Positions 13,713 through 61,375 of a stretch of 64,000 nt of DNA are shown piece after piece. The translations under genes and the position numbers were made by a program. The stretch spans positions 4,464,001 through 4,528,000 of the forward strand of contig NZ_CP163520.1 in the NCBI RefSeq assembly GCF_041080675.1, given 5' to 3'. The notes under the pieces were generated by a model. That model saw only the letters and a program-made list of their open reading frames with translations. It did no database searches and had not been told where the DNA came from. Source of the DNA: Streptomyces sp. cg36 (GTDB lineage: Bacteria > Actinomycetota > Actinomycetes > Streptomycetales > Streptomycetaceae). The stretch's first letter is position 1, and each line of letters begins with the position of its first letter.

Positions 13713-15212
13713 TCAACCCCCGAACCTCTCCCGCAACTTGTACTTCAGCACCTTCCGCAACGCCTCATTACGAGGCAACCCCCCCACCACCTCCAACTGC
13801 TCCGGCAGCTTGTGCACGGAGAGCCCCGCCGCGCGGAGGTGCCGGGTGACCGCCGCGAGGGTCAACTCCTCGCTCCCCGGCCGCTGTTCGACCACCGCGC
13901 ACACCCGCTCCCCCCGCTCCGGATCCGGCAGCCCGATCACCGCCGCGTCGGCGACCCCGGGATGCCGGTGCAGCAGGTCCTCGATCTCCTTCGCCGAGAT
14001 GTTCTCGCCCTTGCGGATGATGATGTCCTTGATCCGCCCGGTCAGCACCAGATGCCCGGAGGCGGTCAGATGCCCGACGTCACCGGTGATCAGGAACCCC
14101 TCCGCGTCGAACGCCGCCGCAGTCTGCGCCGGATCCAGGTACCCCCGGCACACCGCCTCGCCCCGCAGCCGCACCTCGCCGTCGACGATGCGTATCTCCA
14201 TGCCCTCGGGCGGCCGTCCCTCGGTGGTGGCCAGGTTCTCGGGGGTGTCGTCGGGCGAGCCCATCGTGATCATCGGGACCTCGGTCATCCCGTACCCGTG
14301 GCTGAGCGCGCACCCCATCTCCCGCACCACCGCGTGGTACAGCTCGGGCGGCTTCGGCGCGCCCCCGCCGGCCAGCAGCCGCAGCGTGGGCAGGACCGGT
14401 TCGCCGGGCCGCTTGCGCTGCTCGGCGAGGAACATCGAGTAGAACGCGGTGGATCCACCCGCCACCGTCACCCCGTGCCGCCGGTAGGCGGCGAGCGACT
14501 CCGGCAGCGCGAAGTGCTCGACCAGCACGGCCGGGAAGCCGTAGAGGAGGAGCATCACGGTGTAGTCGGGCCCGCCGATGTGGGCGTACGGGAACGCGAT
14601 CGAGCCCACGTCGTCCGCCGTCAGGCGCAGGGCGTGGGCGAGGCAGGAGCCGCCCGCGATGAGCGAGCGGTCGGTGTGGAGCACGCCCTTGGGGTCGGAG
14701 GTGGTGCCGGAGGTCCAGTAGATCCAGCGGACCGCCGTGCCGTCGGAGGGCGGGGGCGGCAGGACGGCCGGATCGCCCTCGGGCAGCCTCTCGTACGCCT
14801 CGAAGACGCCCTTCGCGCCGAGCCGCCGCGCCATCGCGGTGTGGTCGAAGCCGCGCCACACCCCGGGTACGGCGAAGAAGTCGGCGCCCGACTCCCGTAG
14901 CGCGAAGCCCACTTCGTGGTCCCGGTAGTAGGGGATCACCGGCGACTGCACCGCGCCGAGCCGGGCCAGGGCGAAGGAGAGCAGGACGGTCTCGATCCGG
15001 GTGGGCAGCTGCCAGGCGACCACGGTGCCGGGCCGCACCCCCATCCCGTACAGCCCCGCCGCGACCCGCTCGGCCCGGTCCCGCAGCCCGCCGAAGGTGA
15101 GGGAGCGGTCGTCCTGGAGCAGGACGGGCCGGTCGGGGGTGCGTTCGGCGCGGCGGGCGGCCAGCTCCCAGAGGGTGGGCGCGGCGCCCAGTGCGTGTGC
15201 GGTGTCGTTCAC
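13713..15212 (-). CDS. acyl-CoA synthetase (adenylate-forming, FadD-like)
   Basis: Activates a carboxylic acid to its CoA thioester through an acyl-AMP. The 499-residue product has the P-loop-like A3 motif YWTSGTTSDPKG at about 165-176, the A5 motif HGYGMTE at about 305-311, the TGD of LITGDVGHL and the hinge/A8 region GRIKDIIIRKGENISAKEIE, plus the C-terminal catalytic lysine in NEALRKVLKYKLRE. It resembles medium/side-chain CoA ligases of the FadD3/FadD17 kind rather than acetyl-CoA synthetase. It is divergent from an amidohydrolase/acyl-CoA dehydrogenase operon, with two TetR-type operators between them, and belongs to the proposed regulon. Confidence 0.9.
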   Translation of the reverse strand: MNDTAHALGAAPTLWELAARRAERTPDRPVLLQDDRSLTFGGLRDRAERVAAGLYGMGVRPGTVVAWQLPTRIETVLLSFALARLGAVQSPVIPYYRDHEVGFALRESGADFFAVPGVWRGFDHTAMARRLGAKGVFEAYERLPEGDPAVLPPPPSDGTAVRWIYWTSGTTSDPKGVLHTDRSLIAGGSCLAHALRLTADDVGSIAFPYAHIGGPDYTVMLLLYGFPAVLVEHFALPESLAAYRRHGVTVAGGSTAFYSMFLAEQRKRPGEPVLPTLRLLAGGGAPKPPELYHAVVREMGCALSHGYGMTEVPMITMGSPDDTPENLATTEGRPPEGMEIRIVDGEVRLRGEAVCRGYLDPAQTAAAFDAEGFLITGDVGHLTASGHLVLTGRIKDIIIRKGENISAKEIEDLLHRHPGVADAAVIGLPDPERGERVCAVVEQRPGSEELTLAAVTRHLRAAGLSVHKLPEQLEVVGGLPRNEALRKVLKYKLRERFGG

Positions 15213-15247
15213 TTCGGCCCCCAGTGGCTCCCCGGTGACACTTGGAA

Positions 15248-15262
15248 CTGACGGGTAGTCAG
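15248..15262. promoter_or_regulatory. TetR-type operator 1 (CTGAC-N5-GTCAG)
   Basis: CTGACGGGTAGTCAG is a perfect 5+5 inverted repeat, 36 bases upstream of the CoA ligase start. It is identical to the operator at 46701. Confidence 0.8.
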
Positions 15263-15324: not shown

Positions 15325-15339
15325 CTGACGGGGCATCAG
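15325..15339. promoter_or_regulatory. TetR-type operator 2
   Basis: CTGACGGGGCATCAG (one mismatch in the right arm) lies 26 bases upstream of the amidohydrolase start and 77 bases from operator 1, so each divergent promoter has its own site. Confidence 0.75.
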
Positions 15340-15364
15340 ATCTCAGCCGGGCGGAGGCCCATCC

Positions 15365-16552
15365 ATGACGGAACTGCCGCGCATCGTCAGCGTCGACGAC
15401 CATGTGATCGAACCGGCCCACCTCTTCGAGACCTGGCTCCCGGCGAAGTACCGCGAGCGCGGCCCGCGCCCGCTCACCGCCGGAATCGGCGAACTGGCCT
15501 ACGTCGGCGGCAAGTACCGCATCACCATGGACCCGGACGGCCCGCCGACCGACTGGTGGATCTACGAGGACCTGAAGTTCCCGTACAAGCGCAACATCGC
15601 CGCAGTCGGTTTCTCCCGGGACGAGATGACGCTCGACGGCATCACGCGGGAGGAGATGCGGCGGGGGTGCTGGGATCCGCAGGCGAGGCTGGCGGACATG
15701 GACCTCAACCATGTCGAGGCGAGCCTGTGTTTCCCCACCTTTCCCCGGTTCTGCGGGCAGACCTTCGCCGAGGCGCGGGACAAGGAGGTGGCGCTGGCCT
15801 GTGTGCGGGCCTACAACGACTGGATGGTGGAGGAGTGGTGCGGCGACAGCGGCGGGCGCCTGATCCCGCTCTGCCTGATCCCGTTGTGGGACATCGGCCT
15901 CGCCGTCGCCGAGATCCGCCGCAACGCCGCACGCGGAGTACGGGCCGTCACGTTCTCCGAGATCCCCACCCACCTCGGTCTGCCGTCGATCCACTCCGGC
16001 CATTGGGATCCGTTCTTCGCGGTCTGCCAGGAGACGGGGACGGTGGTGAACATGCACATCGGGAGCAGCAGTCAGATGCCGGCCGCGAGTCCCGACGCGC
16101 CGCCGGCCGTGCAGGCGTCGCTCAGCTTCAACAACGCGATGGCGTCGATGATGGACTTCCTCTTCAGCGGGGTCCTGGTGAAGTTCCCGCGCCTGAAACT
16201 GGCGTACTCCGAGGGGCAGATGGGGTGGATCCCGTACGCCCTGGAGCGCGCCGACGACGTGTGGGAGGAGCACCGGGCCTGGGGCGGGGTCAAGGACCTG
16301 GTCCCCGAGCCGCCCTCCACCTACTACTACCGCCAGATCTTCTGCTGCTTCTTCCGCGACAAGCACGGCATCGCCTCGCTGGACGTCGTCGGCCGCGACA
16401 ACGCCACCTTCGAGACCGACTATCCGCACGTCGACTCCACCTTCCCGCACACCAAGGAAGTCGCCCTCGACCACGTCAAGGGGCTCGACGACGAGACCGT
16501 CCACAAGCTGATGCGCGGCAACGCGATCCGGATGCTCGGCCTGGACCTGTAG
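15365..16552 (+). CDS. amidohydrolase family metal-dependent hydrolase
   Basis: TIM-barrel metal-dependent hydrolase of the amidohydrolase-2 (ACMSD-like) family, 395 residues, probably cytosolic. SVDDHVIEP (about 9-17) supplies the first metal ligand region, VVNMHIGSSSQMP the central histidine and ETDYPHVDSTFPH the late Asp region. Members in CoA-ester catabolic clusters act as hydrolases or decarboxylases; the exact reaction is unknown. It is the first gene of an operon whose next gene overlaps by one base (TAGTG). A close paralogue lies at 52796, also directly behind a TetR-type operator, with nearly identical blocks such as CFPTFPRFCGQTF. Confidence 0.85.
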   Translation: MTELPRIVSVDDHVIEPAHLFETWLPAKYRERGPRPLTAGIGELAYVGGKYRITMDPDGPPTDWWIYEDLKFPYKRNIAAVGFSRDEMTLDGITREEMRRGCWDPQARLADMDLNHVEASLCFPTFPRFCGQTFAEARDKEVALACVRAYNDWMVEEWCGDSGGRLIPLCLIPLWDIGLAVAEIRRNAARGVRAVTFSEIPTHLGLPSIHSGHWDPFFAVCQETGTVVNMHIGSSSQMPAASPDAPPAVQASLSFNNAMASMMDFLFSGVLVKFPRLKLAYSEGQMGWIPYALERADDVWEEHRAWGGVKDLVPEPPSTYYYRQIFCCFFRDKHGIASLDVVGRDNATFETDYPHVDSTFPHTKEVALDHVKGLDDETVHKLMRGNAIRMLGLDL

Positions 16553-17685
16553 TGGACCTGGCCAGCACTCCCGAGGAGGAGGAGTTCCGGGCCCGGCTCA
16601 CCGAGTGGCTGGCGGGCGTGCTGCCCGCGCTGCCGCCCCGCCCCGACCCCCTGGACTGGCCGGGGCGGCGCGCCTACGACACCGGCTGGCAGCGCAGGCT
16701 GTACGACGCCGGGTACGCCCAGGTGCACTGGGACGCCTCGCCCGCCCGGCGGCTGATCTTCCTGGAGGAGACCGAGCGCGCGGGCGCCCCCTACGTCGGC
16801 GCCAACTTTGTGGGCCTGCTGCACGCGGGCCCCACCATCGCGGCCGAGGGCACCGCCGGGCAGCGGGACCGGTGGCTGGAGCCGGTGCTGCGCGGCGACG
16901 AGGTGTGGTGCCAGGGGTTCAGCGAACCGGACGCGGGCTCGGACCTGGCGTCCCTGCGCACCCGGGCGGTGCGCGACGGGGACGCGTACGTGGTCACCGG
17001 CGCCAAGATCTGGACCTCGCACGCCGAGATCGCCGACTGGTGCGAACTGCTGGTCCGCACCGACCCCGACGCGCCCCCGCACCGGGGCATCAGCTGGCTG
17101 GCCATGCCGATGGACGCGCCCGGCATCACCGTGCGCCCGCTGCGCACCCTCGCCGGGTCCGCCGAGTTCGCCCAGCTCTTCCTGGACGGGGTGCGGGTGC
17201 CGGTGGCCAACCGGGTGGGCGCCGAGAACGACGGCTGGCGGGTGACCATGGTGACCCTCTCCTACGAGCGGGGCACCGCCTTCGTCGGGGAGGTCGTCGC
17301 CTGCCGCCGGACGCTGGCCGAGGTGGCCCGGGAGTCCCGCAAGAACGGCAGCTGGGACGACCCGGTGCTCAGACGCCGACTCGGGGCGCTGCACGCCGAG
17401 TTCACCGCGCTGTGGCGGCTGATCCAGTGGAACGTGAGCGAGGCGGGCGCCACCGGGGTGCCCGGGGTCGGCGGCTCGGTCTTCAAGCTGCGCTACTCGC
17501 ACGCCCGCCAGGACCTGTACGAGGCCGCCGCCGCCGTCCTCGGGCCCGACGCCCTCGACCTGGACCGGCCGTGGAGCCTGGACCGGCTCTCCTCCCTCTC
17601 GTACACCATCGCCGCCGGGACCTCCCAGATCCAGCGGAACATCGTCGCCGAGCGGATCCTCGGCCTGCCGAAGGAACCCCGCTGA
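16552..17685 (+). CDS. acyl-CoA dehydrogenase, alpha-type subunit
   Basis: FAD-dependent dehydrogenase of 377 residues introducing an alpha-beta double bond into an acyl-CoA. It has the QGFSEPDAGSDLASL flavin-binding block (about 121-135), VTGAKIWTSHA and the C-terminal GTSQIQRNIVAERILGLPKE. The position of the catalytic glutamate of medium-chain enzymes (MCAD Glu376) is alanine here (IAAGTSQIQ), as in the alpha subunits of actinobacterial heterotetrameric FadE enzymes. The start GTG overlaps the stop of the preceding gene by one base, and its stop overlaps the start of the beta-type subunit (TGATG), so the two should be made in equal amounts and form an alpha2beta2 enzyme. Confidence 0.9.
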   Translation: MDLASTPEEEEFRARLTEWLAGVLPALPPRPDPLDWPGRRAYDTGWQRRLYDAGYAQVHWDASPARRLIFLEETERAGAPYVGANFVGLLHAGPTIAAEGTAGQRDRWLEPVLRGDEVWCQGFSEPDAGSDLASLRTRAVRDGDAYVVTGAKIWTSHAEIADWCELLVRTDPDAPPHRGISWLAMPMDAPGITVRPLRTLAGSAEFAQLFLDGVRVPVANRVGAENDGWRVTMVTLSYERGTAFVGEVVACRRTLAEVARESRKNGSWDDPVLRRRLGALHAEFTALWRLIQWNVSEAGATGVPGVGGSVFKLRYSHARQDLYEAAAAVLGPDALDLDRPWSLDRLSSLSYTIAAGTSQIQRNIVAERILGLPKEPR

Positions 17686-18557
17686 TGCACTTCCAACTCA
17701 CCTCAGAGCAAAGGGACTTGCGCGACTCGATCCGTACGCTGCTGGCCCGGCGGTTCGGGCGCGAGGCGCTGTGGGCGGCCGTCGGGGGCGGCGGGCTCGA
17801 CCGGGAGCTGTGGCGCGCGCTGGGGGCGGCCGGGTTCTTCGCGCTGCGGCTGCCCGAGGAGGCCGGGGGCGTGGGGCTCGGGCTGCCCGAGGCCGTGCTC
17901 GTCTTCGAGGAGGCGGGCCGCGCGCTGCTGCCCGGCCCGCTGGTCGCCACCCATCTGGCGGCCGGGTACGTCGGGGGCGCCGCCGAGGGCGAGACGGTGG
18001 TGACCGCGCCCGACGGGGGGCTGGTGGAGTGGCTGGCGGCGGCGGACGTCGTACGGGGCGAGGTGACCGGCGCCGAGCCGATCCGGTCGGTGGACCCGCT
18101 GACACCGCTGCACCGGGTGGCGCGGGGGAGCGCGGACGGCGGCTTCGAGGCGGCCCTGCTCACCGCCGCCGAGCAGCTCGGCAGCGCGGGCCGCAGCACC
18201 GCGACGGCCGTGCAACACGCTCGGGAGCGCATCCAGTTCGGGCGGCCGATCGGCGCCTTCCAGGCGGTCAAGCACCTGTGCGCCGGGATGCTGGTGCGCA
18301 CCGAGGTGGCCCGGGTCGCCGTGTACGCGGCGGCGGTCACCGGTGACCCGGTGGAGATCGCGGGCGCCAAGCTGCTGGCCGACGAGGCGGCGGTGGAGTG
18401 CGCCCGGGACTGCCTCCAGGTGCACGGGGGCATGGGCTTCACCTGGGAGGCGGAGGTCCACCTCCATCTGAAGCGGGCCTGGCTGCGGCGCGAGCGGTGG
18501 CTGCCGACGGCCCGCGCCCTGGAGCTCCAGGCGGCCGCGCTGGCGGAGGCGCCGTAG
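17685..18557 (+). CDS. acyl-CoA dehydrogenase, beta-type subunit
   Basis: Shortened acyl-CoA dehydrogenase homologue of 290 residues that starts inside the upstream stop codon. It keeps the N-terminal helical domain (FQLTSEQRDLRDSIRTLLARRFG) and the C-terminal domain with RERIQFGRPIGAFQAVKHLCA and LQVHGGMGFTWEAEVHLHLKRAW, but the middle beta domain is much reduced compared with the usual 380 residues. This matches the partner subunits of heterotetrameric steroid-catabolic dehydrogenases (FadE28/FadE29 type). A 9-bp-stem hairpin follows the stop. Confidence 0.85.
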   Translation: MHFQLTSEQRDLRDSIRTLLARRFGREALWAAVGGGGLDRELWRALGAAGFFALRLPEEAGGVGLGLPEAVLVFEEAGRALLPGPLVATHLAAGYVGGAAEGETVVTAPDGGLVEWLAAADVVRGEVTGAEPIRSVDPLTPLHRVARGSADGGFEAALLTAAEQLGSAGRSTATAVQHARERIQFGRPIGAFQAVKHLCAGMLVRTEVARVAVYAAAVTGDPVEIAGAKLLADEAAVECARDCLQVHGGMGFTWEAEVHLHLKRAWLRRERWLPTARALELQAAALAEAP

Positions 18558-20810: not shown

Positions 20811-20825
20811 CTAACGGTCCGTCAG
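20811..20825. promoter_or_regulatory. TetR-type operator 3
   Basis: CTAACGGTCCGTCAG (one mismatch in the left arm) lies between the divergent cyclase and short-chain dehydrogenase genes, 22 bases before the latter's GTG, and could govern both. Confidence 0.75.
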
Positions 20826-20847: not shown

Positions 20848-21762
20848 GTGGGGAACTTCTTGGCAGGCAAAGTGGTCGCCGTGACCGGCGCGGGCCGGGG
20901 CATCGGCCGCGCGGTCGCGCGGGCCGCGGCGGCGGCGGGCGCCAAGGTCGTCGTCAACGACTACGGCGTCTCGATCGAGGGCGCGGCACCCAGCAGCGAG
21001 ATCGCGGACGCGGTGGTCAAGGAGATCGCCGCGGCGGGCGGCGAGGCGGTCGCCGTCGCCGACGACGTGTCCACGATGGCGGGCGGCCAGCGCATCGTCG
21101 ACACCGCGCTGGCCCGGTGGGGGCGGATCGACGGGGTGGTGTGCGTGGCGGGCATCCTGCGCGAGCGGATGCTCTTCAACATGACCGAGGAGGAGTGGGA
21201 CCCGGTCGTCGCCACCCACCTCAAGGGCACGTTCACCGTGTTCCGGGCGGCGTCGGCGGTCATGCGCAAGCAGGGCTCCGGCACGCTGATCGGCTTCACC
21301 AGCGGCAACCACCAGGGCAGTGTGGCGCAGGCCAACTACAGCGCGGCGAAGGGCGGGATCATCTCGCTCGTCCGCAGCGCGGCGCTCGGGCTGCACAAGT
21401 ACGGGGTCACGGCCAACGCGGTCGCGCCCGTCGCGCGTACCCGGATGTCCGCGAACGTGCCCATGGAGCTCAAGGAGATCGGTGAGCCCGAGGACGTGGC
21501 GGCGTTCGTCGTCTACCTCCTCAGCGAGGCCGCCCGCGACGCGGGCGTCACCGGTCAGGTGTACACGGTCGCGGGCCCCAAGATCGCCGTCTGGGCCCAG
21601 CCGAGGGAGTTGCGGGCGGCGTACGCGGAGGGGGGCGCGTGGACGCCCGAGCGGTTGGCCGAGGTGGTGCCGGGGGTGGTGGGGGTGGACCCGATGCCGC
21701 TGCTGGAACGCCTGGAGGAAATGTCCCGAGCGGCGTCCTCGGGGGCGCGGCCGAACGGATAG
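20848..21762 (+). CDS. short-chain dehydrogenase (3-hydroxyacyl-CoA dehydrogenase type)
   Basis: NAD(P)-dependent oxidoreductase of 304 residues. The cofactor motif TGAGRGIG is at 13-20, and the catalytic residues are Ser152, Tyr164 and Lys168 (YSAAK). The long loop after strand 2 (VVVNDYGVSIEGAAPSSEIADAVV) resembles the dehydrogenase domain of the peroxisomal multifunctional enzyme HSD17B4, which oxidises 3-hydroxyacyl-CoAs, so a beta-oxidation role is likely. It starts with GTG 22 bases after operator 3, and is followed by an inverted repeat array and then a further acyl-CoA dehydrogenase gene on the same strand. Confidence 0.88.
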   Translation: MGNFLAGKVVAVTGAGRGIGRAVARAAAAAGAKVVVNDYGVSIEGAAPSSEIADAVVKEIAAAGGEAVAVADDVSTMAGGQRIVDTALARWGRIDGVVCVAGILRERMLFNMTEEEWDPVVATHLKGTFTVFRAASAVMRKQGSGTLIGFTSGNHQGSVAQANYSAAKGGIISLVRSAALGLHKYGVTANAVAPVARTRMSANVPMELKEIGEPEDVAAFVVYLLSEAARDAGVTGQVYTVAGPKIAVWAQPRELRAAYAEGGAWTPERLAEVVPGVVGVDPMPLLERLEEMSRAASSGARPNG

Positions 21763-29653: not shown

Positions 29654-29668
29654 CTGACGGAGCGTCAG
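29654..29668. promoter_or_regulatory. TetR-type operator 4
   Basis: CTGACGGAGCGTCAG, a perfect 5+5 inverted repeat, stands 14 bases upstream of the flavin reductase start. It also lies just downstream of the stop codon of the enoyl-CoA hydratase gene on the same strand. Confidence 0.82.
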
Positions 29669-32976: not shown

Positions 32977-32991
32977 CTGACGCTCAGTCAG
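32977..32991. promoter_or_regulatory. TetR-type operator 5a
   Basis: CTGACGCTCAGTCAG is a perfect 5+5 inverted repeat upstream of the ADP-forming synthetase operon, with its centre 24 bases from that of operator 5b, i.e. slightly over two helical turns. Confidence 0.82.
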
Positions 32992-41690: not shown

Positions 41691-44078
<2,388 letters not shown>

Positions 44079-45492: not shown

Positions 45493-46641
45493 TCAGCTCC
45501 TCAGCAGCACGGCCGACGTGGGCACGCCCTCGCCCGCGGTGACCAGACAGGTGGCGGCGTCGGGCACCTGGGCGGTGGAGGTGCCGCGCAGCTGTTTGAC
45601 GCCCTCGTTGATGAGGTTGAAGCCGTGCACGTACGCCTCGCTCAGTCCGCCGCCGCCGGTGTTCAGCGGCAGCCGTCCGCCGATCTCCAGGGCGCCGCCC
45701 TCGGTGAAGGCCGCGCCCTCGCCGCGGTCGCAGAAGCCGTAGCCCTCCAGGGAGAGCGGGACGAGCGGGGTGAACGCGTCGTAGATCTGGGCGACGTCGA
45801 CGTCCTGGGGGCCGAAGTCGGCCTGTTTCCACAGGTGTCGGGCGGCGGTCCAGGCGGGGCCGGTCAGCGGGTCGTCGTTCCAGTAGTTGACCATGCCGTG
45901 GTGCTGGGCGGGCAGGCCCTGGGCGGCCGAGTGCACGTACACGGGCCGCTGCCGGCAGTCGCGGGCGCGCTCGGCGGAGACGATCACGCAGGCCAGCGCG
46001 CCGTCCGTCTCCAGGCAGTTGTCGAAGAGGCAGAGCGGCTCGCTGATCCAGCGCGAGGTCATATACATGTCGCGGGTCAGCGGGCGTTCGTACATGATCG
46101 CGGCCGGGTTCTGGTTGGCGCGGTTGCGGCAGGCCAGCGCCACGTTGAACAGGTGGTCGCGGGTGGCGCCGTACTCGTGCATGTAGCGGCGGGCCAGCAT
46201 GCCGATCTCGTCGGCCGGGCGCAGCAGCCCGAAGGGGCGGGTCCACTGGGCGGGGGTGGGCAGTTGCACGGTGGTGTTGCGCCAGGGGCGCGGGCCGCTG
46301 CCGCGCTTGCGCGAGCGCCAGGCGACGCCCACGTTGGCCTGGCCGGTGGCGACGGCGGCGGCGAGGTGGGCGACGGTGGCGCACGAGCCGCCGCCGCCGA
46401 ACCCGACCTTGCCGAAGAAGGTGAGGTCGCCCGCGCCGATGGACTTGGCGACCTCGACCTCGTCGGTCTCCTCCATCGTGTACGAGGCGAGGGCGTCGAC
46501 CTCGGCCGGGGCGATCCCGGCGTCGTCGAGGGCGGCCAGGATGGCCCGGCACGCCAAGTGCTTCTCCGATTGGGGCAGTTGACGGGCGAACTCCGTCTGC
46601 CCTATGCCGACGATCGCCGTCGCGTCCTTGAGCACCGACAC
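45493..46641 (-). CDS. thiolase (SCP-x/lipid-transfer type)
   Basis: Thiolase-fold enzyme of 382 residues. The nucleophile region is GFGGGGSCATVAHLAAAV with Cys87 at the classical position, unlike the paralogue at 36487 where no cysteine is present. The late conserved blocks are QIYDAFTPLVPLSLEGYGFC and NTGGGGLSEAYVHGFN, the last with His in the usual catalytic region. It probably performs the thiolytic or retro-aldol chain-shortening step with its adjacent DUF35 partner. Its start is 60 bases from operator 9, which is shared with the divergent CoA ligase. Confidence 0.87.
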   Translation of the reverse strand: MSVLKDATAIVGIGQTEFARQLPQSEKHLACRAILAALDDAGIAPAEVDALASYTMEETDEVEVAKSIGAGDLTFFGKVGFGGGGSCATVAHLAAAVATGQANVGVAWRSRKRGSGPRPWRNTTVQLPTPAQWTRPFGLLRPADEIGMLARRYMHEYGATRDHLFNVALACRNRANQNPAAIMYERPLTRDMYMTSRWISEPLCLFDNCLETDGALACVIVSAERARDCRQRPVYVHSAAQGLPAQHHGMVNYWNDDPLTGPAWTAARHLWKQADFGPQDVDVAQIYDAFTPLVPLSLEGYGFCDRGEGAAFTEGGALEIGGRLPLNTGGGGLSEAYVHGFNLINEGVKQLRGTSTAQVPDAATCLVTAGEGVPTSAVLLRS

Positions 46642-46700: not shown

Positions 46701-46715
46701 CTGACGGGTAGTCAG
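46701..46715. promoter_or_regulatory. TetR-type operator 9
   Basis: CTGACGGGTAGTCAG, a perfect 5+5 inverted repeat identical to operator 1, lies between a divergent thiolase operon and an acyl-CoA synthetase gene, 24 bases before the latter's ATG. Confidence 0.85.
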
Positions 46716-52474: not shown

Positions 52475-52795
52475 AGCGACCCCCTGTGCCCCCGTAGCGC
52501 TGGTAATGCCCGTGCCAGTCTGCCCTGTCCATGGCATGCGCGTCAGCTACGGGTGACCCTCCGCACAAGGGCTCTGCACACATTCGTTACAGGTGGCGGG
52601 CGCGTGTCCACGGGGTGGTTCAGGGGATGGACGGGGGTCGCGGGGCGGGGAGGAAGGGGGCGAATGGCCGAGGAGTGACAGGTGGGTGGCCGAGGTGCGA
52701 CCGGTGCGCGGGGCCGCCGGCGGGGCGCGGGCCGGCCGAAGCGGGCCGGTCCGGGGAGCTGACGGATCGTCAGATCGCGTCTACGGTGAAGGGTC
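52475..52795. promoter_or_regulatory. divergent region between afsR and amidohydrolase operon
   Basis: 321 bases without a gene. It should contain the afsR promoter (a less GC-rich part lies at 52560-52590) and, near its right end, TetR-type operator 10 for the amidohydrolase operon. Confidence 0.5.
52759..52773. promoter_or_regulatory. TetR-type operator 10
   Basis: CTGACGGATCGTCAG, a perfect 5+5 inverted repeat, lies 22 bases before the amidohydrolase start and about 285 bases from the afsR start. Confidence 0.85.
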
Positions 52796-54049
52796 ATGGA
52801 AACCGTGGAGAACGTGAAGAACATGGAGCCCGCGGAGGACTTCCCGAGGATCATCTCGGTCGACGACCACACGGTGGAGCCGCCGGGGGTGTGGCGGGAC
52901 CGGCTCCCGGCCCGCTACCGCGACAGCGGTCCGCGCATCGTCCGCGCCCCCCTCAAGGAGATGACCTTCCTCGGCGGGAAGTTCGCCCCGGTGATGGGCG
53001 CGCCGGGCGACGACGGCCCGGTCGGCGACTGGTGGGTGTACGAGGACCTGCACCGCCCCCTCACCCGCCTGGACACGGCCGTCGGCTACTCCCGCGACGA
53101 GATCCGCCTCGAAGTGATCACGTACGAGCAGATGCGTCCCGGTTCGTACAGCGTGCCGGAGCGGCTGGCGGACATGGACGTCAACCACGTCCAGTCGGCG
53201 CTCTGCTTCCCCACCTTCCCGCGCTTCTGCGGCCAGACGTTCACCGAGGCGCCCGACCGGGAGCTGGGGCTGCTGTCCGTGCGCGCGTACAACGACTGGA
53301 TGGTGGAGGAGTGGTGCGGCCCGGCGGCCGGCGGGCGGCTGATCCCGCTCACGCTGGTGCCGCTGTGGGACGCGGAGCTCGCGGCGGCGGAGGTGCGGCG
53401 CAACGCGGCGCGCGGGGTGCGGGCGGTGGCGTTCTCCGAGATACCGCCCCACCTCGGCCTCCCCTCCATCCACGGCGACCACTGGGACCCGTTCCTGGCG
53501 GCGTGCCACGAGACGGGGACGGTGGTCGCCATGCACATCGGCTCCTCGTCCCGGATGCCGTCCACCTCCGCCGACGCGCCGCCCGCCGTGGGCTCCACGA
53601 TCACCTTCGCCAACTGCTGCTTCTCGATGGTCGACTGGCTGATGAGCGGCAAGTTCGAGCGCTTCCCCGGGCTGCGGGTGATGTACGCGGAGGGACAGAT
53701 CGGCTGGATCCCGTACATCCTGGAGCGGGCCGACGTCGTCTGGGAGGAGAACCGCGCCTGGGGCGGGGTGGCGGAGAAGGTCCACCGGCCGCCGTCGGAG
53801 CTCTTCGCCGAGCATGTGTACGGCTGCTTCTTCGACGACGCCTTCGGCCTGCGCAACCTGGGGGCGATCGGGGTCGGCAACGTCCTGTACGAGACGGACT
53901 ACCCGCACTCGGACTCGACCTGGCCCAAGTCCAAGGAGGTCGGGCAGGCGCAGATGGCGCACCTGCGGCCGGACGTGGTGGAGCGGATCGTGCGGGGCAA
54001 CGCGATCGACCTGCTGTCGCTGAGCCCGCAGGGGCTGTGGGCGCCGTAG
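52796..54049 (+). CDS. amidohydrolase family metal-dependent hydrolase
   Basis: Paralogue of the amidohydrolase at 15365, 417 residues. SVDDHTVEPPG (about 19-29), VVAMHIGSSSRMPSTSADAPP and ETDYPHSDSTWPKSK mark the metal-site strands of the amidohydrolase-2 fold, and FPRFCGQTFTEAPDRELGLL and RAYNDWMVEEWCG are almost shared with the paralogue. It probably performs the same kind of hydrolysis or decarboxylation on a different intermediate. The ATG at 52796 follows GAAGGG; ATG at 52826 is an alternative that removes ten nonconserved residues. A thioesterase gene follows. Confidence 0.86.
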   Translation: METVENVKNMEPAEDFPRIISVDDHTVEPPGVWRDRLPARYRDSGPRIVRAPLKEMTFLGGKFAPVMGAPGDDGPVGDWWVYEDLHRPLTRLDTAVGYSRDEIRLEVITYEQMRPGSYSVPERLADMDVNHVQSALCFPTFPRFCGQTFTEAPDRELGLLSVRAYNDWMVEEWCGPAAGGRLIPLTLVPLWDAELAAAEVRRNAARGVRAVAFSEIPPHLGLPSIHGDHWDPFLAACHETGTVVAMHIGSSSRMPSTSADAPPAVGSTITFANCCFSMVDWLMSGKFERFPGLRVMYAEGQIGWIPYILERADVVWEENRAWGGVAEKVHRPPSELFAEHVYGCFFDDAFGLRNLGAIGVGNVLYETDYPHSDSTWPKSKEVGQAQMAHLRPDVVERIVRGNAIDLLSLSPQGLWAP

Positions 54050-54565: not shown

Positions 54566-54580
54566 CTGACGCGCCGTCAG
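54566..54580. promoter_or_regulatory. TetR-type operator 11a
   Basis: CTGACGCGCCGTCAG, a perfect 5+5 inverted repeat, lies 86 bases upstream of the F420-type oxidoreductase gene, 40 bases from operator 11b centre to centre. Confidence 0.83.
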
Positions 54581-54605: not shown

Positions 54606-54620
54606 GTGACGGACCGTCAG
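54606..54620. promoter_or_regulatory. TetR-type operator 11b
   Basis: GTGACGGACCGTCAG (outermost left base differs) lies 31 bases upstream of the GTG at 54652; with 11a it forms a double operator. Confidence 0.78.
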
Positions 54621-54651: not shown

Positions 54652-55596
54652 GTGCACGCGCAACCGCACGCGCTCGTCTACGGGATGCAGCTGCCCGTCC
54701 AGTCCCAGAGCACCCTCTACGCCGAACCGTGGGAAGCCGCCGCGACCCCGGACGACCTCGCCGAGATCGCCCGGGTCGCGGACCGCGCCGGGTTCGGCTA
54801 CCTCGCCGCCTGCGACCACGTCGCCATCCCGCGCCGGCTGGCCGGGGCGATGAGCACCACCTGGTACGACCCGGTCGCCACCCTCGCCTACCTCGCCGCC
54901 GTCACCACCCGCACCCGGCTGCTCAGCCATGTCGCCGTGGTGGGACTGCGCCACCCCCTGCTCACCGCCAAGCAGTACGCGACCCTGGACCACCTCAGCG
55001 GCGGGCGCCTGATCCTCGGCGTGGGCGCCGGGCACGTGCGCGAGGAGTTCGACGTCCTCGGGGCCGACTTCGCCCACCGGGGCAAGGTGCTCGACGAGAC
55101 GATCGACGCGCTGCGGGCGGCGCTCGGGCCCGAGGAGTTCCCCGAGTTCCACGGCGAGCGGTTCGACTTCGAGGGGCTCGGGCAGCGGCCCCGGCCCGCC
55201 CAGGAGGCCGTGCCGCTGTGGGTCGGCGGCTCCTCGCCGGCGGCGGTGCGCCGGGCCGCCCTGCGCGGTGACGGCTGGCTGCCGCAGGGCGACCCGCGCG
55301 ACCGGCTGCCCCATCAGATCGCCCGGATCAGGGAGTTGCGGGAGCGGCACGGCGTGGAGCGGCCGTTCGTCGTCGGCGCCATCGCCGAACCGCTGTACGT
55401 GGGCGAGGCGCGCTGGAACCTGGGGCGGCGCACCCTCAGCGGCAAGCCCGACGCCCTGGCCGACTCGCTGCGCGAGTACGCCGCGCTCGGCGTCGACCAG
55501 GTCCAGCTGCGCTTCCGCTCGCGCGGGCGCAGCGAACTCGTCGACCAGATAGCGGCGTTCGCCGCCGATGTGGCGCCCCAGCTCGACGCCGGGTGA
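54652..55596 (+). CDS. LLM-class F420-dependent oxidoreductase
   Basis: Luciferase-like TIM-barrel oxidoreductase of 314 residues. DHLSGGRLILGVGAGHVREEFDVLGADFAHRGKVLDE (about 109-145) is the hallmark of F420-dependent members, and VPLWVGGSSPAAVRRAA the later conserved strand. It transfers hydride between F420 and a substrate, for example oxidising an alcohol or saturating a double bond. The GTG at 54652 follows AAGGAGG at a good distance. It heads a two-gene operon with a short-chain dehydrogenase. Confidence 0.86.
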   Translation: MHAQPHALVYGMQLPVQSQSTLYAEPWEAAATPDDLAEIARVADRAGFGYLAACDHVAIPRRLAGAMSTTWYDPVATLAYLAAVTTRTRLLSHVAVVGLRHPLLTAKQYATLDHLSGGRLILGVGAGHVREEFDVLGADFAHRGKVLDETIDALRAALGPEEFPEFHGERFDFEGLGQRPRPAQEAVPLWVGGSSPAAVRRAALRGDGWLPQGDPRDRLPHQIARIRELRERHGVERPFVVGAIAEPLYVGEARWNLGRRTLSGKPDALADSLREYAALGVDQVQLRFRSRGRSELVDQIAAFAADVAPQLDAG

Positions 55597-55693: not shown

Positions 55694-56479
55694 ATGGGCA
55701 AGCTGGACGGCCGGGTCGTCCTCGTCACCGGCGCCGCGCGCGGGCAGGGCGAGCAGGAGGCGCGGCTCTTCGCCGCCGAGGGCGCCAAGGTCGTCCTCGC
55801 CGATGTGCTGGACGGGCAGGGGGAGGCGCTGGCCAAGGAGATCGGGGACGGCAGCGCGCGCTACGTCCACCTCGACGTCGGCCGGGAGGAGGAGTGGGTG
55901 GCGGCCGTCGCCGCCGCCAAGGACGCCTTCGGGCATCTGGACGGGCTCGTCAACAACGCGGGGATCCTCCGCTTCAACGAGCTCGTCGCGACGCCGCTGG
56001 AGGAGTTCGAGCAGATCGTGCGGGTCAACCAGACCGGCGCGTTCCTGGGCATCAAGCACGCCGCCCCCGAGATCGAGGCGGCGGGCGGCGGCACCATCGT
56101 CAACACCGCCTCGTACACGGCGCTGACGGGCATGGCGTACGTCGGCGCCTACGCGGCCACCAAGCACGCCATCCTGGGGCTGACCCGGGTCGCCGCCGTC
56201 GAGCTCGCGGCCAAGAAGATCCGGGTCAACGCGGTGTGCCCGGGGGCCGTGGACACCGCCATGAGCAACCCGGCCGCGCTCGACCCCACCGCCGACGCGG
56301 CGGCGGCCCAGGAGGCGGTGGCCGAGCTCTACCGCAAGCTGGTGCCGCTGGGGCGGATCGGGCGGCCGGAGGAGGTGGCGGCGCTCGCGCTCTTCCTGAC
56401 CGGCGACGACTCCGCGTACATCACGGGCCAGCCGTTCGTCATCGACGGGGGCTGGCTGGCCGGGGTCAGTCTTTTCTGA
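55694..56479 (+). CDS. short-chain dehydrogenase (3-alpha/20-beta-hydroxysteroid dehydrogenase-like)
   Basis: Classical SDR of 261 residues: TGAARGQG at 12-19, NNAG at 87-90, catalytic Ser140, Tyr153 and Lys157 (YAATK), and the PG motif [11 protein letters not shown]. The RGQG variant of the Gly-rich loop is frequent in actinobacterial hydroxysteroid dehydrogenases and carveol dehydrogenases, so a secondary alcohol on a ring system is a plausible substrate. Asp in VVLADVLD after strand 2 favours NAD. A strong GAAGAGGGAG leader precedes the ATG. Its stop codon lies within operator 12a. Confidence 0.88.
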
Positions 56480-56490
56480 TGCAGCGTCAG
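56476..56490. promoter_or_regulatory. TetR-type operator 12a
   Basis: CTGATGCAGCGTCAG (one mismatch) overlaps the TGA stop of the upstream SDR gene and lies 117 bases before the next start. Confidence 0.7.
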
Positions 56491-56543: not shown

Positions 56544-56558
56544 CTGACGAGGTGTCAG
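56544..56558. promoter_or_regulatory. TetR-type operator 12b
   Basis: CTGACGAGGTGTCAG, a perfect 5+5 inverted repeat, lies 48 bases upstream of the luciferase-like gene and 68 bases centre to centre from 12a. Confidence 0.83.
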
Positions 56559-56606: not shown

Positions 56607-57734
56607 GTGGAATTCGGTCTCTTCGTACAGGGCTACGTGCCCGTGGCACGCTCGTCGGTCGACCCCCAGGCGGAGCACAAGGCGCTGATGGAGGAGACCG
56701 AGTACGTCATCCAGGCGGACCGGTCCGGCTTCAAGTACGCCTGGGCCTCCGAGCACCACTTCCTGGAGGAGTACTCGCACCTCTCCGCCAACGAGGTCTT
56801 CCTCGGCTACCTCGCCCACGCCACCGAGCGCATCCACCTCGGCTCGGGCATCTTCAACCCGCTGGCCGCCGTCAACCACCCGGTCAAGGTCGCCGAGAAG
56901 GTCGCCATGCTCGACCACCTCAGCGAGGGGCGGTTCGAGTTCGGCTCCGGGCGGGGCGCGGGCTCCCACGAGATCCTCGGGTTCATGCCGGGCGTCACCG
57001 ACATGAACCACACCAAGGAGATCTGGGAGGAGACCATCGCGGAGTTCCCCAAGATGTGGCTCCAGGACGAGTACGTGGGCTTCCAGGGCAAGCACTGGTC
57101 GCTCCCGCCGCGCAAGGTCTTCCCCAAGCCGTACGGGAAGTCGCACCCGGCGATGTGGTACGCCGCCGGCTCGCCCTCCTCGTACGCCATGGCCGCCCGC
57201 AAGGGGCTCGGGGTGCTCGGGTTCTCCGTGCAGAAGGTCTCCGACATGGAGTGGGTCCTGGAGCAGTACAAGACCGCCATCCGGGAGGCCGAGCCGATCG
57301 GCGACTTCGTCAACGACAACGTGATGGTGACGTCCACGGCGATCTGCGCCGAGACCCACGACAAGGCCGTCGAGATCGCCGCCAACGGCGGGCTCAACCG
57401 GCTCCAGTCGCTGGTGTTCCGCTACCACGACACCTTCCCCCGCCCCGAGGGCGTACCGGAGTGGCCCGAGCTGCTGCCCGAGTACACCACCGAGATCATC
57501 GAACTGCTCATCGCCGAGGAGCTGATGATCTGCGGCGACCCGGACGAGGTCACCCGGCAGTGCAAGCGGTGGGAGCAGGCGGGGGCGGACCAGCTCTCCT
57601 TCGGGCTGCCGATCGGGGTGCCGTACGAGGACACCATGAACACGATCCGGCTGATCGGCGAGCACGTGATCCCGAAGATCGACACGGACCCGGTGCACCG
57701 GACGACGCGGTTCCGCGGGGCGGCCGGGGTCTGA
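56607..57734 (+). CDS. LLM-class flavin-dependent oxidoreductase (bacterial luciferase-like)
   Basis: Luciferase-fold enzyme of 375 residues closer to FMNH2-dependent monooxygenases: WASEHHFLEEYSHLSANEVFLGYLAHATERIHLGSGI (about 44-82) and AEKVAMLDHLSEGRFEFGSGRGAG (about 93-118). Such enzymes oxygenate a substrate with reduced flavin supplied by a separate reductase; the HsaB-like protein at 29026, under the same type of operator, could be that partner. Start is GTG at 56607. A 10-bp-stem hairpin follows the stop, then a 435-base gap before the deacylase gene. Confidence 0.86.
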   Translation: MEFGLFVQGYVPVARSSVDPQAEHKALMEETEYVIQADRSGFKYAWASEHHFLEEYSHLSANEVFLGYLAHATERIHLGSGIFNPLAAVNHPVKVAEKVAMLDHLSEGRFEFGSGRGAGSHEILGFMPGVTDMNHTKEIWEETIAEFPKMWLQDEYVGFQGKHWSLPPRKVFPKPYGKSHPAMWYAAGSPSSYAMAARKGLGVLGFSVQKVSDMEWVLEQYKTAIREAEPIGDFVNDNVMVTSTAICAETHDKAVEIAANGGLNRLQSLVFRYHDTFPRPEGVPEWPELLPEYTTEIIELLIAEELMICGDPDEVTRQCKRWEQAGADQLSFGLPIGVPYEDTMNTIRLIGEHVIPKIDTDPVHRTTRFRGAAGV

Positions 57735-58169: not shown

Positions 58170-59918
58170 ATGTCCGACCTCGACCATCTGATCCGGCGCG
58201 CGACCGTCGTCGACGGAACCGGCGCGCCCGCCTTCACCGCCGACGTCGGCCTGCGCGACGGCCGGATCGCCGTCGTCGCCGAGCCGGGCACGCTGGCCCC
58301 CTCGGCCGCCCGCACCCGTGAGGACGCCGAGGGCCTGGTCCTCGCGCCCGGCTTCGTCGACCCGCACACCCACTACGACGCCCAGCTCTTCTGGGACCCG
58401 TACGCCACCCCGTCCATGAACCACGGGGTCACCACCGTCGCGGGCGGCAACTGCGGCTTCACCCTGGCGCCGCTCCACCCGGACCGCCCCGAGGACGCCG
58501 ACTACACCCGGCGGATGATGGCCCGGGTCGAGGGCATGGCGCTCAAGGCGCTGGAGGAGGGCGTCGACTGGAGCTGGTCCTCGTTCGGGGAGTACCTCGA
58601 CGCGCTGGAGGGCCGCATCGCCGTCAACGCCGGTTTCATGGTGGGCCACTGTGCCCTGCGCCGGTACGTGATGGGCCCGGACGCGGTCGGCGGGCAGCCC
58701 ACCCCCGCCCAGCTCGACGCCATGCTGGCGCTGCTGCACGACGCCATGGACGCGGGCGCCTGGGGCCTGTCCACCACCCAGTCCACCACCCACTCCGACG
58801 GCGCCGGAGCGCCCGTCGCCTCCCGGCACGCCCGGCCCGCCGAACTCCTCGCCCTCGCCGAGGCCGTCGGGCACCACGAGGGCACCCAGCTCGAAGCGAT
58901 CGTGGCGGGCTGCCTCGACCAGTTCTCCGACGACGAGATCGACCTGTTCGTGAACCTGTCGGCCGCCGCCGGACGGCCGCTGAACTGGAACGTCCTCACC
59001 ATCGACGCCGCCGTCCCCGAACGCGTGCCGCGCCAGCTGGCCGCGAGCGAGCGGGCCCGCGCGGCGGGCGGCCGGATCGTGGCGCTCACCATGCCGATCC
59101 TCACCCCCATGAACATGTCGCTCGGCACCTTCTGCGCCCTCAACCTCATCCCCGGCTGGGGCGAGGTGCTGGGCCTGCCGGTCCCCGAGCGCGTCGAGAA
59201 GCTGCGCGACCCCGGGGTCCGCGCCGAGCTGCTGCGCCGCGCCCACAGCAAGGAGGCCGGGGTCTTCCGGCGCCTCGCCGACTTCGGGCGGTACGTCATC
59301 GGGGACACCTACTCCCCGGCCAACGCCGGACTCACCGGACGCGTGGTGCGCGACATCGCCGCCGAACGCGGCCAGGACCCCTTCGGCTGCCTCGTCGAGA
59401 TCTGCGCCAACGACCGGCTGCGCACGGTGCTGTGGCCGATGCCGACCGACAACGACCCCGACAGCTGGGCGCTGCGCCGCGCGACCTGGGAGCACGAGGA
59501 CGTCCTGCTCGGCGGCTCCGACGCGGGCGCCCACCTCGACCGCATGTGCGGTGCGCCCTACACCACCCGCTTCCTCGGCGACTGCCTGCGCGGACGGCGG
59601 CTGGTCCCGCTGGAGCGGGCCGTACGGATGCTCAGCGCCGACCCGGCCGCGCTGTTCGGACTGCGCGGGCGGGGCCGGATCGAGGAGGGCGGCCACGCCG
59701 ACCTCGTCCTCTTCGACCCCGAGCGCGTCGACGCCGGACCCGCCACCCTGGTGCACGACCTGCCCGGCGACAGCCCGCGCCTGGACGCCAAGGCCGTCGG
59801 GGTGGTCTCGGTACGGGTCAACGGCGTCGAGACCCTCCGCGACGACGTGGTGACCGGCGCGCTGCCGGGCACCGTGCTGCGCTCCGGCCGCGACACGAGG
59901 ACGGTGTCCGTCAAGTGA
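58170..59918 (+). CDS. N-acyl-D-amino-acid deacylase-family amidohydrolase
   Basis: Amidohydrolase-3-type zinc hydrolase of 582 residues. The HxH metal motif is in LAPGFVDPHTHYDAQLFWDP (about 65-85), a middle block is TTVAGGNCGFTLAP, and LLGGSDAGAHLDRMCGAPYTT holds the late Asp. Members cleave N-acyl-D-amino acids, but related proteins accompany many acyl-CoA catabolic clusters with unknown substrate. ATG at 58170 has GAGAGGGACAG upstream. The stop overlaps the start of the aldehyde dehydrogenase gene (GTGA). Confidence 0.86.
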   Translation: MSDLDHLIRRATVVDGTGAPAFTADVGLRDGRIAVVAEPGTLAPSAARTREDAEGLVLAPGFVDPHTHYDAQLFWDPYATPSMNHGVTTVAGGNCGFTLAPLHPDRPEDADYTRRMMARVEGMALKALEEGVDWSWSSFGEYLDALEGRIAVNAGFMVGHCALRRYVMGPDAVGGQPTPAQLDAMLALLHDAMDAGAWGLSTTQSTTHSDGAGAPVASRHARPAELLALAEAVGHHEGTQLEAIVAGCLDQFSDDEIDLFVNLSAAAGRPLNWNVLTIDAAVPERVPRQLAASERARAAGGRIVALTMPILTPMNMSLGTFCALNLIPGWGEVLGLPVPERVEKLRDPGVRAELLRRAHSKEAGVFRRLADFGRYVIGDTYSPANAGLTGRVVRDIAAERGQDPFGCLVEICANDRLRTVLWPMPTDNDPDSWALRRATWEHEDVLLGGSDAGAHLDRMCGAPYTTRFLGDCLRGRRLVPLERAVRMLSADPAALFGLRGRGRIEEGGHADLVLFDPERVDAGPATLVHDLPGDSPRLDAKAVGVVSVRVNGVETLRDDVVTGALPGTVLRSGRDTRTVSVK

Positions 59919-61375
59919 ACGCGTACGAGCCGAAGCTGTTCATCGGGGGCGAGTGGGTCGAGCCGGACGGCGGCCGGTACGAGATCCTCGACCCCGCCAC
60001 CGAGGCCGTCGTCGGCGCCGCCCCCGAGGCGAGCCGCGACCAGGTGTACGCGGCGTGCGCCGCCGCCCGGGAGGCGTTCGGGCCCTGGTCGCGCACGTCC
60101 CCCGAGGAGCGCGCCGCCGTCCTGGACCGCGCCGCCGGCCTCGTCCAGCGCGCCCTCGTCCCGTACGCGGAGCTCGCCCGGGCCGAGACCGGCGCCACCA
60201 CCGCCACCGCGCGCGGCATGCAGGTGGCGGTGGGCGCGGCCCGCTTCCGGCGGTACGCGCGCGGCGCCCTGGAACCGGCCGAGGAGGCGCTGCTGCCGCA
60301 GGTCAACCAGGCCGGACCGATGGGGCGGGCCGGGGTCTTCGGGGCGCTCGCCGTCCGCCAGCCGGTCGGCGTGGTCACCTGCGTCACCTCGTACAACAAC
60401 CCCTGGGCCAACCCGGCCGGCAAGGTCGCGCCCGCGCTCGCCATGGGCAACACCGTGGTCGTCAAACCCGCGCCGCAGGACCCCCTGTCGGTGTTCCGGA
60501 TGGCCGAGGCGCTCGCGGAGGCGGGGGTGCCGCCCGGCGTGGTCAACGTGGTCACCGGCTCGGCCCCGGCCGTCGGAGAGGCCGCCGTGGACTCGCCCGA
60601 CGTCGACATGGTCAGCTTCACCGGCTCCACCGAGGTCGGCCGCAGCATCGCCGAGGTGTGCGGGCGGGGCATGAAGCGCCAGCTCATGGAGCTCGGCGGC
60701 AAGGGGGCGGCGCTGGTCTTCGACGACGCGGACCTGGCGGTGGCGGTGGCGGGCATCGGCACCACGTTCTCCTTCTACAGCGGCCAGATCTGCACCGCCC
60801 CCACCCGGGTCCTGGTCCAGCGGGCCGTCCACGACCGGCTGGTCGAGCAACTCGCCGCCTACGCGGCCCACTTGGCCGTGGGCGACCCGGCGGCGCCGGG
60901 CACGGTGGTCGGCCCGCTCATCTCGGCCGCGCACCGCGACCGCGTCGAGTCGTACGTGGAGCTCGGCCGCAAGGAGGGGGCGCGGGTGGTCGTGGGCGGC
61001 GAACGGCCGCTGCTGGAGCGGGGGTTCTATGTGGCGCCCACGCTCCTCGCCGACTGCACCAACGACATGCGGGTGGTCCGCGAGGAGATCTTCGGGCCGG
61101 TGGTGGCGGTGGTGCCGTTCGACGACGAGGAGGAGGCGGTGGCCCTCGCCAACGACAGCGAGTACGGCCTGATCGACTACGTCTTCTCGGGCGACGTCGC
61201 CCGCGCCTTCCGGGTGGCGCGGCGCCTGCGGGCGGGGGGTGTCGGCGTGAACACGGTGGGGCGCAACATGGAGGCGCCGTTCGGGGGGTTCAAGAGGAGT
61301 GGGGTGGGGCGGGATGTGGGGTCGTACGCGTTGCACGCGTACAGCGAGCTGCAGGCGATCGTGTGGCCCGGCTAG
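59915..61375 (+). CDS. aldehyde dehydrogenase
   Basis: NAD(P)-dependent aldehyde dehydrogenase of 486 residues. Catalytic Cys293 is in FYSGQICTAPTR, the general base Glu259 in LMELGGKGA, the cofactor loop FTGSTEVG at 235-242 and the active-site Asn in TSYNNPWAN. EIFGPVVAVVPF and the C-terminal PFGGFKRSGVGRDVG complete the family. It oxidises an aldehyde, perhaps one released by the aldol-type cleavage or by the alcohol dehydrogenase at 23351, to the acid for CoA activation. Co-translated with the deacylase; an inverted repeat array follows the stop. Confidence 0.92.
   Translation: MNAYEPKLFIGGEWVEPDGGRYEILDPATEAVVGAAPEASRDQVYAACAAAREAFGPWSRTSPEERAAVLDRAAGLVQRALVPYAELARAETGATTATARGMQVAVGAARFRRYARGALEPAEEALLPQVNQAGPMGRAGVFGALAVRQPVGVVTCVTSYNNPWANPAGKVAPALAMGNTVVVKPAPQDPLSVFRMAEALAEAGVPPGVVNVVTGSAPAVGEAAVDSPDVDMVSFTGSTEVGRSIAEVCGRGMKRQLMELGGKGAALVFDDADLAVAVAGIGTTFSFYSGQICTAPTRVLVQRAVHDRLVEQLAAYAAHLAVGDPAAPGTVVGPLISAAHRDRVESYVELGRKEGARVVVGGERPLLERGFYVAPTLLADCTNDMRVVREEIFGPVVAVVPFDDEEEAVALANDSEYGLIDYVFSGDVARAFRVARRLRAGGVGVNTVGRNMEAPFGGFKRSGVGRDVGSYALHAYSELQAIVWPG

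Follow-up and report, generated by a model that had tools for sequence, protein, structure and literature searches.

A TetR-family repressor with its own palindromic operator as the probable regulator of a widespread acyl-CoA catabolic regulon in Streptomyces and related bacteria

We propose that a TetR-family repressor of Streptomyces sp. cg36 controls, through an operator of its own, a widely distributed regulon of acyl-coenzyme A (acyl-CoA) catabolism. The stretch of DNA analysed, hereafter the window, comprises 64,000 nucleotides (contig NZ_CP163520.1, positions 4,464,001 to 4,528,000; coordinates below are those of the window unless stated otherwise) and carries 16 copies of the palindrome CTGAC-N5-GTCAG. 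In our reading, to which sequence comparisons lead us to assign a probability of roughly 0.8, these are operators of the single-copy TetR protein encoded at 39777..40424 on the minus strand, which would be induced by an acyl-CoA and would control the breakdown of a cyclic terpenoid or steroid-like acid. Both the repressor and the sites recur in Streptomyces and in several related families. Neither this operator nor a regulon governed by a PF19352 protein is described among the literature matches listed, which leave most subscription journals outside their coverage, and passages of PMC5539140, PMC7324645 and PMC4625935 do not mention the regulator.

A preliminary description of this DNA had listed 15 of the palindromes. 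All of them were found, nine perfect and six with one mismatch, and there is a sixteenth that it had overlooked, also with one mismatch, at the start of the TetR gene (CTGTCATGCCGTCAG, 40418..40432), which would be a weak autoregulatory operator. A symmetrised matrix of 21 columns built from the 16 sites scores the 15 at 21-32 bits and the sixteenth at 15.2 bits; the high values are a matter of construction, because the matrix was made from those same sites. In twenty first-order Markov sequences of 64 kb, matches of at least 14 bits occur at 0.15 per 64 kb and matches of at least 18 bits not at all. The window contains a single further match of at least 14 bits (15.0 bits, at 10261, within a gene). 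Each of the 16 sites has its centre in the non-coding 15.7% of the window as delimited by our own codon-based gene caller; the site at 40418 overlaps the start codon (ATG) of the longer TetR reading (215 aa), and that at 56476 overlaps the final bases of the SDR2 gene. When up to two mismatches are allowed, the window shows no enrichment (36 matches versus 37.4 expected), so that the signal is carried by the good matches alone. The extended consensus proposed earlier, ATCTGACGNNNCGTCAGAT, holds as a tendency but not as a strict rule, with the A present in 23, the T in 20 and the inner G in 26 of the 32 half-sites.

The palindrome and the repressor go together across genomes. We compared palindrome counts with those of a reversed-pattern control in 246 genomes of the class, taking E<=1e-30 as the definition of a TetR ortholog. 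Where an ortholog is present (43 genomes), the median is 19 sites (control 1); where none is found (203 genomes), it is 1 (control 0). At least eight sites occur in 32/43 of the former versus 1/203 of the latter. If Streptomyces and family f15 are left out, the remaining 16 TetR genomes have a median of 11.5 sites (p 3e-10). Within family f16, all seven TetR-bearing genomes have 12-20 sites, and four of the five TetR-less ones have 0-2. TetR matches that are merely weak (1e-24 to 1e-28) occur in three genomes, which were scored as TetR-less and have 1-2 sites each. It is worth pointing out that in one genome (G069, locus L159) the TetR ortholog (~42%) is interrupted by one in-frame TGA and only three sites are present (control 1); this copy is possibly decaying.

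The regulator consists of an N-terminal TetR helix-turn-helix (HTH) domain (TetR_N) and a helical ligand domain (TetR_C_38, PF19352), the latter being the sole PF19352 match in the genome; an alternative GTG start lies at 40391. Its structure model has a predicted local distance difference test (pLDDT) value of 91.3, with EthR as the nearest fold. The protein was found in 24/24 genus relatives examined (74-94% identity) and in the 14 genomes of family f3 (58-65%). All 16 aligned orthologs share, within the DNA-binding domain, the segment GTS-x-ATFYQYF without any change except at x. At 20 TetR loci from diverse families, a site of at least 15 bits lies no more than 60 bp upstream of the matched 5' end in 13 and at 258 bp in one. 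A larger set, the best 80 of 481 confirmed relatives (1.37 Mb in all), includes 74 loci from Streptomyces, the others being from Actinomadura, Pseudofrankia, Parafrankia, two Frankiales/Frankiaceae metagenome-assembled genomes (MAGs) and an Acidimicrobiales MAG. A site occupies the same place over the TetR start codon in 75 of the 80 named loci, in one case with a score below 14 bits; the TetR gene of the Acidimicrobiales MAG has no site upstream. Since the whole stretch is conserved within Streptomyces, a site at the TetR start proves little there, and conservation of this start within the genus was set aside as evidence. What counts is its recurrence in other families.

The sites around TetR are also associated with the same genes. 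At a threshold of 19 bits, the 80 named loci contain 243 sites, at least one in 71 of the loci; 237 sites lie within 350 bp upstream of a gene, six elsewhere and none within a gene, and the reversed matrix yields no site in the same DNA. The genes downstream are mainly orthologs of thiolase 1, acyl-CoA dehydrogenase 4 (ACAD4), the ADP-forming ligase, thiolase 2, ligase B and the 150-aa protein of the window. In more distant relatives, operators accompany orthologs of amidohydrolase 2 (65%), the acyl-CoA dehydrogenase subunit ACADa (62%), LLM2 (58%) and SDR1 (65%) in family f16, and of the Ltp2-like thiolase 2 (79%) in f3, where the cyclase/SDR1 gene pair likewise has sites. Across f16, f20 and f3 they also precede relatives of LLM1 (48-60% for the closest), SDR1 (65-70%) and the cyclase (55%), together with more distant ones, and ten other scanned targets in these families include a thiolase, two ChsH2-like proteins, a cytochrome P450, esterases, a wax-ester synthase and a CoA-transferase. 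In Actinomadura, TetR, the ADP-forming ligase (65%) and amidohydrolase 1 (73%) stand in a row with five sites, including that of TetR itself. In the Acidimicrobiales MAG, the order is TetR, operator, amidohydrolase 1 (68%) and aldehyde dehydrogenase (60%), and amidohydrolase 3 (66%) lies nearby. Phylogenetic footprints of two intergenic regions, in which the site is present in every sequence, give a consistent picture: palindrome positions are 0.84 conserved versus 0.38 elsewhere between thiolase 1 and ACAD4 (48 sequences), and 1.00 versus 0.60 between thiolase 2 and ligase B (39 sequences). In both regions the palindromes are conserved islands. The earlier suggestion that one regulator serves all the units is well supported by the co-occurrence, the sites at the regulator's own start, the recurrence of operator-gene pairs in distant relatives and the two footprinted regions, and most likely it is the single TetR at 39777-40424 that runs the whole operator set.

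The regulon had been described as one of 48 kb. This is too narrow, because operators also precede catabolic genes beyond the window. The genome (9.02 Mb, three contigs) contains 484 matches to CTGAC-N5-GTCAG with at most one mismatch, versus 171 for the reversed pattern; for the stricter WCTGACGNNNCGTCAGW, again with at most one mismatch, the numbers are 42 and 2. Of the strict matches, 11 fall within the window, where 0.3 would be expected (binomial p 8e-15), and 31 elsewhere. Sites elsewhere were examined in 40 stretches of the genome taken around them. Among 30 sites of at least 18 bits, 20 lie 5' of a gene start, four at stop codons, four within genes and two in other positions; among the 25 of at least 20 bits outside the window, 11 precede genes for acyl-CoA or luciferase-like enzymes. 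A site 9 kb before the window precedes an enoyl-CoA hydratase gene and lies in the end of the preceding AMP-ligase gene. Other outside targets are two acyl-CoA dehydrogenases, one of them fused, two luciferase-like oxidoreductases, a MaoC hydratase, a DUF35/SCP-x thiolase pair and two sets of facing genes, one of a P450 and a thiolase and the other of an AMP ligase and a hydratase. There is also a second copy of amidohydrolase 1 (89%), which faces a copy of the 150-aa protein (75%) across two operators (L074:2518-4384, G000:C1 ~3.636 Mb). Strict matches are enriched in the window, and some good sites elsewhere precede unrelated or family-less genes.

As for the substrate, the two Amidohydro_2 members deserve attention. 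For both, the best PDB match is DitZ, whose link to diterpenoids we presume from its PDB name, and the next is PtmU3. No paper on DitZ was among the literature matches listed. Residues D23, H25, H247, E299, D368, H371 and D373 are invariant in six homologs and, on visual comparison, correspond to positions in the alignments with DitZ and PtmU3, which gives the ligand set of a PtmU3-type metal site (D-x-H, H, E, D, H) together with an extra acidic residue. According to PMC7782822, PtmU3 belongs to diterpenoid biosynthesis and is a diiron beta-hydroxylase able to use substrates bound to CoA. The same paper states that binuclear members of the amidohydrolase fold can be told by an acidic residue at one position, and it describes oxygenases of this fold in diterpenoid biosynthesis and in amino-acid breakdown. 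The PDB matches and the retained diiron ligands suggest that the two proteins are acyl-CoA hydroxylases feeding retro-aldolases; on the same grounds, the possibility that they are plain hydrolases was set aside. PtmU3 itself belongs to a biosynthetic pathway, whereas the proteins described here are known from sequence and sit in a predicted catabolic regulon. The substrate had previously been characterised as an unusual hydrophobic or cyclic acid. This is plausible and can be narrowed to what is likely a cyclic terpenoid or steroid-like carboxylic acid, although both the substrate and the inducer, which would be its CoA thioester, are inferred. An ordinary steroid route is unlikely, since in the accessible part of PMC4810484 steroid pathways were not found in 55/57 Streptomyces genomes; this judgement rests on that survey, the cg36 genome itself not having been searched for steroid nucleus genes such as kstD, hsa and ipdAB.

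Taken together, these features allow a tentative scheme. At each unit, and likewise at its own gene, TetR would occupy the core promoter or the DNA next to it, and would leave the DNA as an acyl-CoA of the pathway builds up. The nature of this small ligand is suggested by the parallel with KstR2, for which HIP-CoA serves as effector (PMC5380842). At 46701, a promoter-like pair CTGACA-N17-TAATCT has its -10 box over the edge of the operator, and at 20811 the operator abuts a TAAAAT -10-like box; such boxes would fit blocking of RNA polymerase that is released by a ligand. The substrate might be activated to its CoA ester by two AMP ligases and one ADP-forming ligase, and then oxidised by paired acyl-CoA dehydrogenases, hydratases and the two probable diiron hydroxylases of the amidohydrolase fold. 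The product of the latter, a beta-hydroxyacyl-CoA, would pass directly to the SCP-x thiolase/DUF35 sets, which are of the Ltp2-ChsH2 type and would cleave it, and flavin- and F420-dependent redox steps would accompany the pathway. The window would then represent the densest part of the regulon, with more units elsewhere in the genome.

A number of observations weigh against this reading, and some of them would be accommodated better by other explanations. Among the 43 TetR genomes, 11 have fewer than eight sites (e.g. G060 with 1, G191 with 2, G272 and G281 with 4 each), and the f16 genome G188 (68% complete) has 15 sites and no TetR ortholog by direct search. Seven of the 20 diverse TetR loci lack a site within 60 bp, six of them having none in the 300 bp upstream, and the 74 Streptomyces loci are mutually non-independent. 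Promoter-like pairs are found at just 5 of the 16 sites and match the consensus weakly. The site-poor TetR genomes, the case of G188 and the low score of TetR's own site in the window are what one might see if another regulator, encoded outside the window and distributed like TetR, bound the palindrome and TetR were one of its targets. We regard this as improbable: apart from G188, TetR presence tracks the sites in f16, TetR adjoins operators and the same enzyme genes in both Actinomadura and the Acidimicrobiales MAG, and a nearly invariant DNA-binding segment accompanies the same operator. Other difficulties arise from the position of sites. Outside the window, 14 of the 25 sites of at least 20 bits have no clear acyl-CoA or luciferase-like gene downstream; contrary to the view taken in the preliminary description, they include sites before genes for a transglycosylase, an EF-G-like protein, a DUF6801 protein, an HTH/EPSP-synthase protein and several family-less proteins, and among the 14 two lie between convergent genes, one within a gene and one between PNPOx-like and isochorismatase-like genes. 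Family f15 (G051, G073, G091, G107, G123), in which TetR is also present, has 130-326 copies of WCTGACGNNNCGTCAGW with at most one mismatch versus 0-1 for the reversed pattern, and these are mostly off promoters: in 400 kb of G123, sampled around perfect sites, and of G051, sampled at even steps, 18/63 overlap stop codons and 21/63 are intragenic. No conserved flanks were seen around 30 perfect f15 sites. With sites scattered over genes and stop codons in this way, a giant regulon in f15 was rejected, and we consider f15 a second, unexplained use of the same palindrome. The palindrome is capable of forming a hairpin, so that the f15 positions and the two convergent cases could also mean that we are dealing with RNA hairpins (terminators or attenuators) or dispersed repeats rather than operators. 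This is highly improbable, however, given that 238/246 sites of at least 18 bits in the 80 TetR loci lie 5' of gene starts and that the palindrome is the conserved part of both regions tested and is shared by divergent gene pairs.

It is also conceivable that the regulon is correct but serves general fatty-acid or branched-acid oxidation. Many of its members are generic acyl-CoA enzymes, and lower-ranked fold matches of TetR include the fatty-acyl-CoA sensors FadR and DesT. On the other hand, the regulon contains SCP-x/DUF35 sets with an Ltp2-like member, DitZ/PtmU3-like proteins, a P450 and F420-type enzymes, and its acyl-CoA dehydrogenases are nearest to Tcur3483, Tcur3481 and 4x28, which we take to be steroid enzymes. 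Such an assignment thus appears unlikely, if less so than either of the two explanations above, and we favour the breakdown of a cyclic acid under control of TetR.

The regulator had been likened to KstR/KstR2, which is right in kind, both being TetR proteins, but nothing ties it to KstR itself. As in the KstR/KstR2 regulons of Mycobacterium and Rhodococcus, a TetR repressor is accompanied by a short palindrome in front of scattered acyl-CoA units that include a FadD3-family ligase, paired acyl-CoA dehydrogenases and Ltp2/ChsH2-type proteins. The protein described here, in contrast, belongs to PF19352 and has EthR as its nearest solved structure, and its operator is presumably unlike the KstR and KstR2 motifs. 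None of the 25 or 38 PDB matches is a chain named KstR, several being named generically and KstR not having been compared directly by sequence; identity with KstR/KstR2 finds no support in the PDB or fold matches, which fall short of strict exclusion. EthR of M. tuberculosis is the closest by both sequence profile and fold (TM 0.78/0.86), with just 16-18% identity in the best fold matches. EthR acts as a local repressor on a monooxygenase gene and is not known to govern a wide acyl-CoA regulon. The Ltp2-ChsH2 pair, presumably a retro-aldolase, has its counterpart in the thiolase at 45493-46641 (6ok1, 345 bits) and its ChsH2-like neighbour at 45048-45491. These two form an adjacent SCP-x/DUF35 set, and the genes at 36487 and 35064 a looser second one; a difference from the known system is that at least three such sets with operators nearby are present in this genome.

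It is tempting to go further and to speculate that an undescribed TetR regulon for the oxygen-dependent breakdown of CoA-bound polycyclic terpenoid acids is present in almost every Streptomyces and in relatives as distant as Acidimicrobiales, that in it diiron hydroxylases of the amidohydrolase fold make beta-hydroxyacyl-CoA and SCP-x/DUF35 pairs cleave it by a retro-aldol reaction, and that this catabolic stock was the source of enzymes such as PtmU3 that tailor diterpenoid antibiotics. As a whole this remains a doubtful conjecture. Our main reading, if correct, would assign both a function and an operator to a TetR that is highly conserved in Streptomyces, and would place dozens of scattered acyl-CoA genes under one control and in one testable pathway. 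It would imply that Streptomyces of the soil, in which known steroid pathways are rare, keep a different route for cyclic lipids, and it would indicate a catabolic role for the amidohydrolase-fold oxygenases known from diterpenoid biosynthesis and amino-acid breakdown (PMC7782822). The operator can be scanned in other genomes to locate the rest of the pathway.

The gene content given in the preliminary description was confirmed by Pfam, with a third amidohydrolase (PF07969, 58170-59918) in addition. In what follows, genes are assigned by Pfam and sites by pattern and matrix unless noted, and the sign gives the strand. Ligase A, an AMP-forming acyl-CoA ligase (13713..15212, -) for which a PDB search at 1e-50 gave no match, diverges from amidohydrolase 1 (15365..16552, +), a probable diiron acyl-CoA hydroxylase by Pfam, PDB match and ligands, across operators at 15248..15262 and 15325..15339. 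Amidohydrolase 1 is followed by acyl-CoA dehydrogenase subunits a (ACADa, 16552..17685, +; nearest PDB chains Tcur3483 and 4x28) and b (17718..18557, +). The operator at 20811..20825 lies between a cyclase-family protein (PF04199, 19832..20758, -) and SDR1 (20872..21762, +). A flavin reductase-like gene (29026..29640, -) has its operator 5' at 29654..29668; enoyl-CoA hydratase 1 (29709..30704, -) and the ADP-forming acyl-CoA ligase (30695..32872, -) follow, the latter with two operators 5' of it (32977..32991 and 33001..33015). The region between the FMO-like monooxygenase (33219..34355, -) and the 150-aa protein (34543..34995, +), which has no Pfam family and is by comparison conserved together with its operator, contains the site at 34506..34520. 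Beyond it lie DUF35/ChsH2-type partner 1 (35064..35441, +) and a PNPOx-like protein (35792..36442, -). SCP-x type thiolase 1 (36487..37659, -; Pfam and PDB) and ACAD4 (37802..39127, +; nearest PDB chain Tcur3481) flank the footprinted operators at 37664..37678 and 37737..37751 (32.3 bits), and an F420H2-dependent quinone reductase-like protein (39175..39645, +) precedes TetR.

To the right of TetR, enoyl-CoA hydratase 2 (44266..45051, -), DUF35/ChsH2-type partner 2 (45048..45491, -) and thiolase 2, the Ltp2-like thiolase/retro-aldolase (45493..46641, -), diverge from ligase B, a FadD3-family acyl-CoA ligase above the NCBIfam cut-off (46739..48352, +), across the footprinted operator at 46701..46715. 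Amidohydrolase 2 (52796..54049, +), again a probable diiron acyl-CoA hydroxylase by Pfam, PDB match and ligands, has its operator at 52759..52773. On the other side of this operator, inside the regulon and divergent from amidohydrolase 2, is an AfsR-like regulator (BTAD, NB-ARC, TPR; 49529-52583). The earlier statement that no site stands in front of the afs genes is right by distance only: the site lies between the two genes, 30 bp from amidohydrolase 2 and 382 bp from the AfsR-like gene, or less with a longer reading of the latter. LLM1, an F420-type luciferase-like oxidoreductase (54652..55596, +), has operators 5' at 54566..54580 and 54606..54620, and LLM2, another luciferase-like oxidoreductase (56607..57734, +), at 56476..56490, the extreme end of SDR2 (55694..56479, +), and at 56544..56558. 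Amidohydrolase 3 and an aldehyde dehydrogenase (58170..61375, +) have no site of their own; their orthologs lie near TetR in the Acidimicrobiales MAG.

A few minor observations may be added. Elsewhere in the genome, two perfect palindromes (L062:3045 and L063:3013; G000:C1 863244 and 3007712) each lie between the genes of a convergent pair, where they cover the end of the one on the right, and are not in promoters. The gene for the EF-G-like protein (GTP_EFTU, EFG_C; L099:844-2925) has a 25.1-bit site 104 bp upstream. Finally, a protein kinase with a PQQ-type beta-propeller is encoded near TetR (41691-44078) without an operator, as it is in two listed Streptomyces loci.

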